Below are positions 38,128 through 50,046 of a DNA stretch of 64,000 nt, in pieces. The notes beneath the pieces are model-generated. The model ran no database searches. It was given only the letters and a program-made list of their open reading frames with translations, and was not told the DNA's origin. This DNA comes from Chryseobacterium gwangjuense (lineage in GTDB: Bacteria; Bacteroidota; Bacteroidia; Flavobacteriales; Weeksellaceae), in contig NZ_JAJTNP010000002.1 in NCBI RefSeq assembly GCF_021311115.1, positions 1-64,000 on the forward strand. The letters run 5' to 3'. Position 1 is the stretch's first letter. Every line of letters starts with the position of its first letter. A program made the position numbers and the translations under genes.

Positions 38128-38140
38128 AATAATTTACCGA

Positions 38141-38188
38141 TGTATCAATGTAACAGTCTAGCAATTGGTAAACTGTTATATTGATACA
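38141..38188 (+). repeat. Hairpin repeat 3' of the first ACP gene
   Basis: Arms 38141-38157 (TGTATCAATGTAACAGT) and 38172-38188 pair at 16 of 17 positions over a 14-base loop. It shares the words CAATGTAACA and CAGTCTA(G/A)CAA with the larger inverted repeat at 49706-49772. Confidence 0.75.
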
Positions 38189-38205
38189 TTGTTACATTTT
38201 GCAAA

Positions 38206-39405
38206 ATGGGTCAAAAAATTGCCATAACAGGAATGGGCATCATTTCCTCCATCGGAAACAATGTGGAGGAAAATTTGAGTTCGTTAAAATCCGGAAAACA
38301 TGGAATTTCAGACATTCAGTTGTTTGAAACACGTCACGCCGGAACTATAAAAACGGGCGAAATCAAATGGTCTAATGAAGAGCTTGTACAGAAACTTCAG
38401 TTACATGAAGATAATAATGCTACAAGAACCTCTTTATTAGGAATGGTTGCCGCAAAAGAAGCCGTAGAAAGTGCTGGAATAACCGACATTAATGGATATA
38501 AAACAGGTTTGATTTCCTCAACAAGTGTTGGCGGAATGGATATTACCGAAAAATATTTCTACAGCTACGAAGACTTTCCTGAAAAACAAAAATATATTGA
38601 CGCTCATGATGCAGGAAATTCATCATTGCTGATTGCAGATTATTTGGGTTTAAAAGGAATGGTTTCTACCATCAGTACAGCCTGTTCTTCTGCAGCCAAT
38701 GCGATTATGATGGGTGCAAAATTGATTAAGAACGGAGTTTTAGACCGTGTAATTGTCGGCGGAACAGATTCTCTTTCAAAATTTACTTTGAATGGTTTCA
38801 ATACGTTGATGATTCTTACCGACTCATACAACACGCCTTTCGATAACGACAGAAAAGGTTTGAATTTAGGGGAAGCAGCTGCTTTCATTATTTTGGAATC
38901 TGATGAAGTCGTGAAAAAGGAAAATAAAAAAGTTCTCGGTTATCTTTCTGGGTATGGAAACGCCAACGATGCTCATCACCAAACCGCTTCTTCAGAAAAC
39001 GGACAAGGAGCCTATTTAGCGATGGAAAAAGCATTGAAAGTTTCTGGTTTAGATAAAGAAAATATCGATTATATCAATGTTCACGGAACGGCAACTCCCA
39101 ATAATGATTTATCGGAAGGAATTGCCATGATCAGAATTTTTGGAGAAAACAATGTTCCGGAATTCAGTTCTACGAAAGCATTTACAGGTCATACCTTAGC
39201 CGCTGCTGCTGGAATTGAAGCGGTGTATTCTTTATTGGCCATTCAAAACAATCTTATTTTCCCGAATCTGAATTTTAAAACAAAAATGGAGGAATTTGAT
39301 TTGACGCCGGTAACTGAACTCAAAGAGAAAAACATTAACCACGTTCTTTCCAATTCATTTGGTTTTGGAGGAAACTGTTCAACTTTAATTTTCTCAAAAT
39401 CATGA
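38206..39405 (+). CDS. Beta-ketoacyl synthase (KAS II-type)
   Basis: 399 residues, full length. Triad intact: Cys160 (STACSSAANAI), His in NVHGTATPNND (about 302) and His in GHTLAAAAGIEA (about 329). Its stop overlaps the start of the Cys-less partner (39402) by 4 bases, the classic ketosynthase plus chain-length-factor arrangement of aryl polyene and type II polyketide systems. It is likely to be the main polyene elongation enzyme. Confidence 0.93.
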   Translation: MGQKIAITGMGIISSIGNNVEENLSSLKSGKHGISDIQLFETRHAGTIKTGEIKWSNEELVQKLQLHEDNNATRTSLLGMVAAKEAVESAGITDINGYKTGLISSTSVGGMDITEKYFYSYEDFPEKQKYIDAHDAGNSSLLIADYLGLKGMVSTISTACSSAANAIMMGAKLIKNGVLDRVIVGGTDSLSKFTLNGFNTLMILTDSYNTPFDNDRKGLNLGEAAAFIILESDEVVKKENKKVLGYLSGYGNANDAHHQTASSENGQGAYLAMEKALKVSGLDKENIDYINVHGTATPNNDLSEGIAMIRIFGENNVPEFSSTKAFTGHTLAAAAGIEAVYSLLAIQNNLIFPNLNFKTKMEEFDLTPVTELKEKNINHVLSNSFGFGGNCSTLIFSKS

Positions 39406-40463: not shown

Positions 40464-40483
40464 TTTGTTTAAAATATTCCAAT

Positions 40484-40631
40484 TGTCATTCTGATGAAGG
40501 AAGAATCTCTTAATAATCTTAACTCCTTAAGCTAAAACTTAATGGTTATAATTGAAACATTAAGAGCTATTTAGAGATTAAGAATAGTAAGCTTAGATTC
40601 TTCATTTCGCTTCGCTGCATTCAGAATGACA
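40484..40631. repeat. Complete TGTCATTCTGA inverted-repeat element
   Basis: Ends are perfect 11-bp inverted repeats (TGTCATTCTGA at 40484-40494, TCAGAATGACA at 40621-40631), each followed inward by a GAAGAATCT-type segment; the centre is AT-rich. It has no ORF and no flanking direct repeat. It lies in the 220-base gap between the chain-length factor and the deacetylase and is the longest copy in the window. Confidence 0.8.
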
Positions 40632-40683
40632 GAATGAAAACATATTGAGAGTAATATAGACCAAAACTCAAAAACAATAAAAG

Positions 40684-45320: not shown

Positions 45321-45371
45321 TAGTTTCTAGGATTCGGCGGCGGCAAAGCCGCCGCCGAATCCTAGAAACTA
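45321..45371. terminator. 24-bp-arm GC-rich palindrome, probable bidirectional terminator
   Basis: Perfect inverted repeat (arms 45321-45344 and 45348-45371) with an AAA loop. The core is GGCGGCGGC/GCCGCCGCC, far more GC-rich than its surroundings. It lies exactly between the ends of converging genes, and the right arm includes the stop codon of the C45 gene. Confidence 0.75.
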
Positions 45372-47135
45372 CCTCAACTTCTTCAACGTTTTCTTCAAAT
45401 ACTTCTCCACATTTTCTTTATCCGGAACGGTTGTAATTTCTTTAGACAATACCTTTTCAAACTCAACTTTGGCTTTTTGATATTCTTTTTTGTTAAAATA
45501 ATATTTCCCAGCCTGATAATACACCAGCCAAAAGTCAGGATTTAGAGATTGATAAAAAGGTAAAAAGTCATCAGTAAGAAGAATACCTTTATTATGAATA
45601 GCATCATTAATTTTCGAGCTCATATTTTTATAATACTCATAATTTTCATATTCCTCAGAATCCACAAAAGGATCTTTGGTAATATTTAATTCTGATCTTG
45701 AAAATGTACCATTCTGTGTTCTTTTTTCCGAGAAGATCTCATTCAGATCATAACAGACAAATTCGCCTAATTGATACGGATTGGAAGATACCCAAACCAA
45801 TTTTTTCTGAGGCGAAAAAATCACTGCGTGATGTGCCAAAAGCTGATTGATTGCTTTCTCGTTACCATAACCAATACTTTCACCTTTCAACCCGGATTTA
45901 TCTCTTAAAATCGAAACCATTTTCTCAGGATTCAGCTTCTTATTTTCCTGTAAAAGTTCCTGCAATTTCTCGTACCTATATTCGGAATGGCTGTCTATAA
46001 TATGTTTCTGGTTTCTTTTATCATCTTTGTAAGCATCAGATTGAAAATGATTGGTACAAAAAACCCGGCTTGTATTTTCCACTTTGTATACCCCAAAATT
46101 ATTCGGAGATACTTCAATAATCACAGCATTTTTATCATTAGCGCTTCCAACCAAAATTGATTCCGAAACAAAAACTTTTCTCTTTTTAGCAATTGCAATA
46201 GCTTCATCTATATTTCTTGCATATTGTAAAATCTCTCGTGTCACCAAAGAAATTGGTGTTTTCGCCGTTAATGGAATTTTAGATTTTCCGGCATTGATGG
46301 TCACTGTAATTCCTTCTTTATTCATTCCGGAAACCACTCCGATCATTCCTGGCCAACTTACAGATAAATAGGGAATTCCGACTTCCGGTTCTACAAATTC
46401 CACCAGTTTATTTTTAGCAAAATCATCCCCTACGTAAAAGTCAAAATTTCTTCCGATGAGCAAGTCTCCATCTTCCGTATTTTCATTCCAAACGGCAAGA
46501 GACGTGCAACCCACCATCATCAAATCCTGCATAGCATGACCAATATCGTGAGCTCCATGCAGATACAAACTTCTCAGATATTTAGGTGCAATAAAATCAT
46601 ATTTATCAGATGAATACTGAGATAATCCGTACAATTCTGCCTGAAAATCATTTCTGACATTCAGATACATTTTCCGGTTGTACCATTTCAGGAAGTTTCT
46701 CAACAGGTATTGTTTAAATTTTGAAGGAACAAATCCTTCCACTTTAGAGAAAAAAATTTCTTCCTGTTTCTGCATTAGACTTTGGGTTAAAGCCCCATTA
46801 TTATAACCCAGCTGCAAAGGATTCCCTTTAATATACAACTCCCAAAGCTGCTGTTTGTTTTTCGTTAAATAATTTTGATTGAAACTAAAAGTAGAATCGT
46901 TGATCTTATTCACTTTCGGAATTTCAAGTGAATATTGTTTGACATCTGGAGTATGTTTGATTGATTTTCGAACACCACAAGACGTGAAGCTAGCAATAAA
47001 AAGAATACTAAATAAAAATCGCCAAATGTCATTCTGACGATAGGAAGAATCTCTATGAATTAATTTAGATTCTTCACTACATTTCATTCCGCTCAGAATG
47101 ACAGGTTGCAAAGTTATTTTGCTATTATTCCTCAC
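45369..47135 (-). CDS. C45-family acyltransferase/peptidase lipoprotein
   Basis: 588 residues. Cys210 in MMVGCTSLAVWN is the N-terminal nucleophile expected after self-cleavage in the isopenicillin-N acyltransferase family; GYNNGALTQSL and LIGRNFDF are family blocks. A lipobox (FTSC, Cys53) follows a hydrophobic stretch. The first about 35 residues are encoded by a dispersed repeat, so the real start is uncertain: GTG 47135 (11-base overlap with the previous gene) or ATG 47087. It could make or hydrolyse an amide or ester of the pigment. C-terminal part resembles TPR-like helices. Confidence 0.75.
   Translation of the reverse strand: MRNNSKITLQPVILSGMKCSEESKLIHRDSSYRQNDIWRFLFSILFIASFTSCGVRKSIKHTPDVKQYSLEIPKVNKINDSTFSFNQNYLTKNKQQLWELYIKGNPLQLGYNNGALTQSLMQKQEEIFFSKVEGFVPSKFKQYLLRNFLKWYNRKMYLNVRNDFQAELYGLSQYSSDKYDFIAPKYLRSLYLHGAHDIGHAMQDLMMVGCTSLAVWNENTEDGDLLIGRNFDFYVGDDFAKNKLVEFVEPEVGIPYLSVSWPGMIGVVSGMNKEGITVTINAGKSKIPLTAKTPISLVTREILQYARNIDEAIAIAKKRKVFVSESILVGSANDKNAVIIEVSPNNFGVYKVENTSRVFCTNHFQSDAYKDDKRNQKHIIDSHSEYRYEKLQELLQENKKLNPEKMVSILRDKSGLKGESIGYGNEKAINQLLAHHAVIFSPQKKLVWVSSNPYQLGEFVCYDLNEIFSEKRTQNGTFSRSELNITKDPFVDSEEYENYEYYKNMSSKINDAIHNKGILLTDDFLPFYQSLNPDFWLVYYQAGKYYFNKKEYQKAKVEFEKVLSKEITTVPDKENVEKYLKKTLKKLR
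47027..47103. repeat. TGTCATTCTGA inverted-repeat element at the start of the C45 gene
   Basis: Termini TGTCATTCTGA (47027-47037) and TCAGAATGACA (47093-47103); internal GAAGAATCT-type segments face each other. The centre is shorter than in the copy at 40484. The gene's reading frame runs straight through it. Confidence 0.8.
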
Positions 47136-48796: not shown

Positions 48797-49681
48797 TTAA
48801 TCTATATCATCCCAAAAATCAAAGTAATTGAACCATTGCAAAGGATATTTTTCCAGCATAGATTCAAGATTTTGGGTATAAGAGTTTAAAAGTCCTTGTG
48901 CATCACGCTTTTTAACATTTTGTGCCACTCTTGCATATAAGTGATAATGAAGATTCTTTTCTTTCATTACATAAACATATACAACCGGAACTCCCAGTCT
49001 GGAAGCAATAAGAAACGGACCTGCCGGAAACTTCGCCGTTTTTCCAAGCAACTCCCCTTCCAGATATTTTGAACCTTCAAAATAACGATCTCCGGTAAAA
49101 CAGATCAGTTCGTTTTTAGATAAGGCTTCATTGATATCGAAAATATGCGACATATCTTCTTTCACATAGATGAACTTGATAGAACTCTTATTAACAGCTA
49201 CACTTTCAAGATATTCTTTAATAACGGTGACTTCCTGATCTGTAGTCACTAAATTAATCTGACAATCAAAGTCAATATCTGCAAAAAAGCGTTCGGCAAT
49301 TTCAAAATTTCCGATATGGGCACTTATTAGAACTCCTCCTTTTTTTTCTGCTAAAAGATTTTTAAGATTTTCAACTCCGTCAAATTCGTACGTAAATTTT
49401 TCTCTGAGACCTGCAGAAATTGCCGTTTTATCGATCAATACCTTACCAAATGTAAAATAGCTTTTGAAAACAGAAAATTTTGTTTTCCATGAGCTATAAT
49501 TCAGCCTTTTATGGAAATAATAAGAAATATATCGGTTGCTTTTTTTCAGAAATAAAAAATAGTAGGCAGCAACGAAATATAAAACTAGATATGAACTTCG
49601 GATCCCGATATTTCTAATGCACCAAACGAATATTTTATATCCTAAAATAGTGCCTTTAGATTTACCTTTCCATTTGTTCAT
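48797..49681 (-). CDS. LpxL/HtrB-like lysophospholipid acyltransferase
   Basis: 294 residues with one N-terminal membrane segment (about 25-50) and the acyltransferase motif LISAHIGNFE (His about 121, H-X4-E), then FTGDRYFEGS and a proline-rich PVVYVYV. The family transfers acyl groups from acyl-ACP to lipids at the inner membrane face. It is a second candidate for attaching a polyene acyl chain. An intergenic hairpin separates it from the ACP gene. Confidence 0.85.
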   Translation of the reverse strand: MNKWKGKSKGTILGYKIFVWCIRNIGIRSSYLVLYFVAAYYFLFLKKSNRYISYYFHKRLNYSSWKTKFSVFKSYFTFGKVLIDKTAISAGLREKFTYEFDGVENLKNLLAEKKGGVLISAHIGNFEIAERFFADIDFDCQINLVTTDQEVTVIKEYLESVAVNKSSIKFIYVKEDMSHIFDINEALSKNELICFTGDRYFEGSKYLEGELLGKTAKFPAGPFLIASRLGVPVVYVYVMKEKNLHYHLYARVAQNVKKRDAQGLLNSYTQNLESMLEKYPLQWFNYFDFWDDID

Positions 49682-49705
49682 AGTTCTAATTTAGCAATGC
49701 ATCAG

Positions 49706-49772
49706 TCTAACAATGTAACAATATTTTAAACATTGATAAACGGATGCATCGCTATATTGTTACATTGTTAGA
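49706..49772 (-). repeat. Hairpin repeat 3' of the second ACP gene
   Basis: Perfect 19-bp arms, TCTAACAATGTAACAATAT (49706-49724) and its mirror (49754-49772), over a 29-base loop. A further pair, TAGCAATGCAT (from 49692) against ATGCATCGCTA, overlaps it. It shares words with the hairpin at 38141-38188. Confidence 0.8.
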
Positions 49773-49791
49773 GTAGATTTTTAATCGATAG

Positions 49792-50046
49792 TTATGCGTT
49801 TTTTTCAGCGATTTTATTTTCAATTATCGTGTAGAAATCATCAAATGTTACCATCTGCTTAAAGTCTGCTTCCCCTAATTTCACACCGAAATTAGACTCT
49901 ATAACAACCACAAGATCAATATAATCCAAACTATCTAAGCCAAGGGTTTTCTTAAGATTAGCATCGTTGCTGATCTCATCCCCATCTACTTCAAATTCAT
50001 TAATCAAAAAATCATTTGCTATAGCAATAATTTTTTCTCTTTCCAT
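49792..50046 (-). CDS. Acyl carrier protein (second in cluster)
   Basis: 84 residues from ATG at 50046 (MEREKIIAIAND). Phosphopantetheine serine in LGLDSLDYIDLV (about Ser38). Its companion gene is the ketosynthase immediately upstream. Sequence differs clearly from the first ACP, so the two probably serve separate acyl chains, for example aryl polyene and alkyl resorcinol arms. Confidence 0.92.
   Translation of the reverse strand: MEREKIIAIANDFLINEFEVDGDEISNDANLKKTLGLDSLDYIDLVVVIESNFGVKLGEADFKQMVTFDDFYTIIENKIAEKNA

Follow-up and report, generated by a model that had tools for sequence, protein, structure and literature searches.

Tandem-octamer hairpins behind two acyl carrier protein genes of Chryseobacterium gwangjuense, probable gene-less relatives of an IVS-like element

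Short palindromes repeated between bacterial genes are known in several forms. Elements of the enterobacterial repetitive intergenic consensus (ERIC) or miniature inverted-repeat transposable element (MITE) type are short, imperfect intergenic palindromes that are present in several copies, lie in operon gaps and have a full-length relative, and repetitive extragenic palindromes (REPs) and bacterial interspersed mosaic elements (BIMEs) are extragenic palindromes of variable copy number. A ring protein bound to tandem RNA triplets is known in TRAP. For the intervening sequences (IVSs) of 23S rRNA, the relevant part of PMC4990558 describes the S23p-family proteins as having no known function and the role of the IVSs as very little known; it also reports that the Xanthomonas S23p is a homopentamer and that the Coxiella IVS gene is preceded by tandem heptamers. 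Here two hairpins were analyzed, at 49688-49766 and 38131-38198 of a 64,000-nucleotide stretch of C. gwangjuense (positions 1 to 64,000 of contig NZ_JAJTNP010000002.1, assembly GCF_021311115.1; "the window"), each of which follows an acyl carrier protein (ACP) gene. Both are probably solo copies or remnants, without a gene, of an IVS-like element whose full form encloses a gene of the 23S rRNA intervening-sequence protein (IVP) family (PF05635). In the open-licence PMC literature no paper was found that ties PF05635 genes to intercistronic tandem-repeat palindromes.

The two hairpins and their repeat family

The element proper at 49688-49766 consists of two 35-nt arms and a 9-nt loop. The plus-strand arm (49688..49722) reads AATTTAGC AATGCATC AGTCTAAC AATGTAAC AAT and has five RRT-type cores at 8-nt spacing; the opposite arm (49732..49766), read on the minus strand, is AATGTAAC AATATAGC GATGCATC CGTTTATC AAT. 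The element at 38131-38198 has its first arm at 38131..38165 on the plus strand and its second at 38164..38198 on the minus strand, with 2 nt in common. As an earlier sequence-only reading had proposed from common words, which were found again (CAATGTAACA at 49711, at 49758 on the minus strand and at 38146; CAGTCTA in both), the two hairpins form one repeat family, with a common architecture of tandem RRTNTANC octamers inverted about the tip. Neither copy contains a PF05635 gene.

The perfect 19-bp inverted repeat that had been noticed at 49706-49772 is present, with arms at 49706-49724 and 49754-49772 and 29 nt between them. It is one among several unit pairings, to which one arm contributes its outermost octamer and the other its tip octamer. 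The minimum-energy fold of 49682-49791 on the coding strand, read from the predicted structures, uses a different pairing, one octamer off the symmetric register; several pairings compete because the arms consist of repeats. The z-score of the fold was -5.0 on the minus strand, on which both adjoining genes are encoded, and -3.9 on the plus strand; for 38128-38205 it was -6.7 (plus) and -5.6 (minus), and 0 of 200 shuffles were as stable at either place. Judged from their sequence, the window hairpins do not fit an intrinsic terminator (a GC-rich stem with a T run behind it, at the end of an operon): the stems are AT-rich, and only a few bases separate them from the next gene of like orientation. 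The window gave no match in Rfam.

Across the family an arm is made of four RRTNTANC octamers and a final RRT. In 154 two-arm rows, some of them orthologues and a few of them different pairings of a single arm (e.g. L110 5028), the match between arms spans four octamers plus RRT and is near background on either side; the template imposes the match within this length but not the fall outside it. Since the match is limited to this length, each arm holds five RRT cores, spaced by 8 nt. The narrow pattern CAATGTAACA, gap, TTACATTG had zero matches in this genome, since each octamer of an arm has two variable positions. Variable positions were anti-matched between the arms over the 154 rows; at position 7 of octamer 4, for example, 19 rows were the same against 58.3 expected unoriented and 54.7 oriented. 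A stem kept perfect by covariation along the whole element is ruled out by this anti-matching. Mixed orientation of two unlike arms accounts for part of it, and the remainder may be due to tips that have been inverted, for which G004 (L280) and G012 (L285) are an example. In the gap behind the first ACP gene (the ACP1 gap), the inner 24 nt of these two related species are, by eye, reverse complements with one difference. Other REP-like repeats were seen in the tips of some octamer palindromes, of the CTTCGACAAGCTCAGCATGACA family in 14 of 153 and GTCATTCTGA ... TCAGAATGACA-like in 5 of 153. As MITE/ERIC-type elements are, the solo members of the family are short and gene-less, with inverted ends and several intergenic copies.

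IVP genes between the arms

Between the arms, several relatives have a small gene that Pfam assigns to 23S_rRNA_IVP (PF05635). Thirty IVP loci were fetched, 28 of them at two sites (17 and 11). Octamer arms lay on both sides of the IVP gene in 27 of these 28, L476 being without the second arm, and the remaining two of the 30 loci held more distant IVPs with a different octamer. In Arenibacter (L183) octamer arms likewise surround an IVP gene. Arms were intact while the IVP copy was broken by stops in L490 and L098. Full, decayed and solo forms stand at one orthologous gap: at the first site, presumably paaI-paaJ, the 17 distinct gaps held 3 solo octamer palindromes, 8 elements with an intact or decayed IVP and 6 palindromes of other families, the families being judged by eye. 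This genome's own gap at that site has a palindrome of another family. The second site, which we take to be carA-carB, has octamer IVPs in 11 loci. At what is by eye the same site, L327, L345 and L356 have IVPs with 7-mer flanks, and octamer arms are seen in L477-L488.

All 30 of the 30 genus genomes had PF05635 genes, as did 95 of 119 genomes of the class, against 0 of 14 control genomes. Among IVP genes, inverted flanks (score of at least 24) were found for 40 of 60 in the genus and 22 of 29 in the class, versus 2 of 60 neighbour genes; the genus loci, 60 out of 259 matches, came non-randomly from 8 of 30 genomes, and the class loci are the best-scoring ones. Roughly two thirds to three quarters of the examined IVP genes of the class are flanked by inverted repeats, in many cases with units of 7 or 8 nt. 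Inverted flanks were also scored for 78 of 681 genes in octamer-rich loci, in which it is common for a gene to have a copy on either side.

Across the class, unit length is linked to IVP lineage. Around 29 of the 30 best-scoring class relatives of the octamer-type IVP, picked by protein alone, lag 8 was the strongest of lags 5-10, and the units differed among them (AATTTGAA, GATTAGCT and others). The 7-mer families have mostly 3 to 5 units per arm, by a cruder estimate. On an IVP tree of 76 rows (126 loci minus 8 with stops or odd length, minus rows more than 75% alike), which has few columns, many open forks and an over-sampled octamer-type lineage, the period labels clustered, with 11 and 9 changes against 25.2 and 23.2 when shuffled and 0 of 500 shuffles as low.

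The solved chain nearest to IVP is 2rld, which has five chains of one sequence. Because of these five chains and the Xanthomonas homopentamer reported in part of PMC4990558, five cores per arm fit a pentamer. The full element is composed of two inverted five-core arms, each of four RRTNTANC and an RRT, around the IVP gene. An IVP ring may sit on the tandem units with about one core per subunit, and binding of the repeats by IVP could be the route by which the element spread or was kept. On loss of the IVP gene the arms would remain and form imperfect hairpins within the mRNA of the operon, either tolerated there or of slight use as spacers.

A wider reading is offered tentatively, since we think it somewhat less than even in likelihood: IVP/S23 proteins may be ring-shaped readers of tandem repeats, each lineage with its own 7- or 8-nt unit and, in the case of a pentamer, about five such units in each arm. 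Such a pairing would define a large class of IVS-like elements in the operons of Bacteroidota, with solo palindromes a main kind of intergenic repeat in their genomes. The solo palindromes hint at what the IVP protein may recognise, and if unit length is a property of the IVP lineage, the repeat array becomes the obvious ligand. A set of intergenic palindromes in the genus and its relatives would then share an origin, and a kind of element would be added whose sole gene encodes neither transposase nor reverse transcriptase.

Distribution of the copies and rival explanations

The octamer pattern was found at 13 places in this genome, four of them weak or with one clear arm; seven isolated 3-mismatch matches were left out, and so was C1:397347-397389, an array of different appearance with 2 mismatches at best. 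At zero mismatches there were 17 matches, against 0 for the reversed control. The pattern was present in 35 of 36 genus genomes and in none of 23 genomes that represent the order's other families, with copy number strongly uneven between species; the reversed pattern gave 0 in most genomes and up to 21 in a few. A scan of the collection gave at least 118 stretches, and the 80 listed came chiefly from Chryseobacterium and also from Elizabethkingia, Cloacibacterium, one Arenibacter and some unplaced genomes. Two of the loci, L177 and L183, are long arrays.

Elements lie mostly between co-directional genes: this holds for 12 of the 13 places in this genome, and the 192 elements of the fetched loci divide into 156 co-directional, 12 at the locus edge, 11 inside an open reading frame (ORF), 11 divergent and 2 convergent. 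Several elements in these last three categories seem to owe their score to antisense ORFs, one example being over the ACP gene in L128. The copies are not spread evenly, as the sequence-only reading had named as telling against its proposal; the background in these loci is 724 co-directional pairs among 849 neighbouring gene pairs. Some of the runs that hold elements we take to be phenylacetate and purine genes. In a 464-kb screen of this genome (the window and 20 stretches of 20 kb), 125 co-directional gaps of 50-220 nt were scored and 8 reached an inverted score of at least 28; in the shuffle control 5 gaps reached 28 in one of 12 shuffles. Three of the 8 gaps were also periodic, one of them the gap of the 49688-49766 hairpin.

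The 38131-38198 element lies between the first ACP gene (PF00550; 37870..38127, plus strand) and a gene at 38206..39405 on the plus strand, presumably ketosynthase-like. The second ACP gene (PF00550 match; 49792..50046, minus strand) is the upstream neighbour of the 49688-49766 element, and the gene downstream (48797..49681, minus strand) we take to be acyltransferase-like. The second ACP gene, the element and the next gene are all on the minus strand, and the element is therefore within an operon-like run. Elsewhere in the window a perfect, terminator-like 24-bp GC-rich hairpin stands between two convergent genes (45321-45371), and another repeat family, GTCATTCTGA ... TCAGAATGACA, occupies gaps at 40464-40683 and 47001-47129.

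The rival that survives best, though we consider it unlikely, is a host-function intercistronic hairpin: the palindrome would be kept for mRNA processing, stability or translation coupling in long operons, with IVP genes as later guests. This suits the way in which the gap is filled, the 156 co-directional elements being separated by a median of 3 nt from the stop codon before them and of 7 nt from the start codon after them. It also suits the ACP1 gap, which was readable in 29 of 30 genomes searched (a contig end fell in the remaining one) and had octamer arms in 29 of 29, with two full arms in 26 and short or irregular ones in L259, L261 and L275. In the 26 two-arm orthologues the middle of the stem was compensated, position 4 of octamer 3 matching across the arms 16 times versus 9.0 expected and position 7 of octamer 2 14 times versus 9.5, counts that take no account of relatedness. 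The tip octamer, however, was kept mismatched at position 4 (0 of 26 matched versus 6.8 expected), and a host function is likewise opposed by the anti-matching over the 154 rows, by the great differences in copy number between species and by the variable gap behind the second ACP gene (ACP2), where two full arms were found in 15 of 30 genomes, a CTTTGCG repeat in two and no visible octamers in one. The CTTTGCG repeat occupies the slot of the octamer palindrome in L231 (G026) and L250 (G001). An octamer palindrome on either side of the first ACP gene was seen in L128, L146, L152 and others.

Several observations weigh against descent of the window hairpins from an IVP-bearing, IVS-like element. 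First, the constant ACP1 copy and its mid-stem compensation are as compatible with a host function as with a relic, and palindromes of different families share slots, as if the gap required a palindrome; such re-occupied slots count for the host-function hairpin. Second, relatives of the octamer-type IVP at E 1e-20 were found in 52 of 98 genus genomes and this genome gave no match to that lineage, so that its copies are without a partner here; the full-length relatives with the same ends are IVP-carrying copies in other species, with none in this genome. Third, 20 of 60 genus and 7 of 29 class IVP genes had no inverted flanks at the threshold. Strong flank periodicity of IVP genes (lag 7 in about 60%, lag 8 in about 18%; 52% and 15% for neighbour genes) has no clean control because neighbour genes share an arm, and clustering on the tree was made easier by the few columns and the over-represented octamer-type relatives. 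Finally, no clear target-site duplication was found: 3-nt direct repeats occurred in 18 of 152 versus 11.0 expected, with 20 in the largest shuffle, and at 4-10 nt nothing exceeded the shuffles.

A REP/BIME-type palindrome moved by a REP-associated tyrosine transposase (RAYT, Y1) independently of IVP is very improbable; the many short intergenic palindromes and the REP-like repeats in some tips (14 and 5 of 153) agree with it, but the same arms enclose IVP genes and unit length clusters with IVP lineage.

The conserved ACP dosage element of the sequence-only reading, the least credible of the rivals, draws on the copy behind both ACP genes of the cluster (presumably flexirubin) and on the ACP1 copy, whose conservation in all 29 readable gaps stands, but its ACP specificity fails and the distribution of copies largely contradicts it. 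Most copies lie elsewhere: 2 of the 13 copies here follow ACP genes and 11 do not, and of 137 elements (from 77 of the 80 listed scan loci, identical copies removed) 11 lie directly behind relatives of these two ACP genes, 126 do not, and 8 lie directly ahead of them. At the other four PF00550 loci, including the best-scoring stand-alone ACP at C11:12006, no three-octamer arm was found at fewer than 5 mismatches. An effect specific to the ACP1 site alone is possible.

Comparison with known systems

The octamer element resembles REP/BIME in its extragenic palindromes and variable copy number, and differs in unit structure and in its associated gene, which is IVP (RAYT was not searched for). To the ERIC/MITE type it is alike in the features of palindrome, copies and gaps and in having a full-length relative; unlike these, its arms are five-core tandem arrays, no clear target-site duplication borders it, and its full form carries IVP and not a transposase. 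For TRAP the proposed analogy is of one repeat per ring subunit; that protein is unrelated to IVP, whose binding would follow by analogy. The TAACTGA heptamer direct repeats of Beggiatoaceae (PMC4679880) are likewise intergenic 7-nt tandem repeats near start codons, but form direct arrays with a single inverted case, and S23, 23S and helix bundle are absent from the available portion of that text.

From the 23S rRNA IVS the octamer elements differ in that they sit between protein genes, and so outside the rRNA genes, that their arms are octamer arrays and that the window copies are gene-less. They share with it stem-forming terminal inverted repeats, seen here in the 19-bp repeat and the folds. 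As far as the pertinent sections of PMC4990558 describe the IVSs with an S23p/IVP gene in Coxiella and Leptospira, both kinds of element also place a PF05635-type gene between terminal inverted repeats, have short tandem repeats adjoining that gene (heptamers in Coxiella) and persist while the gene decays.
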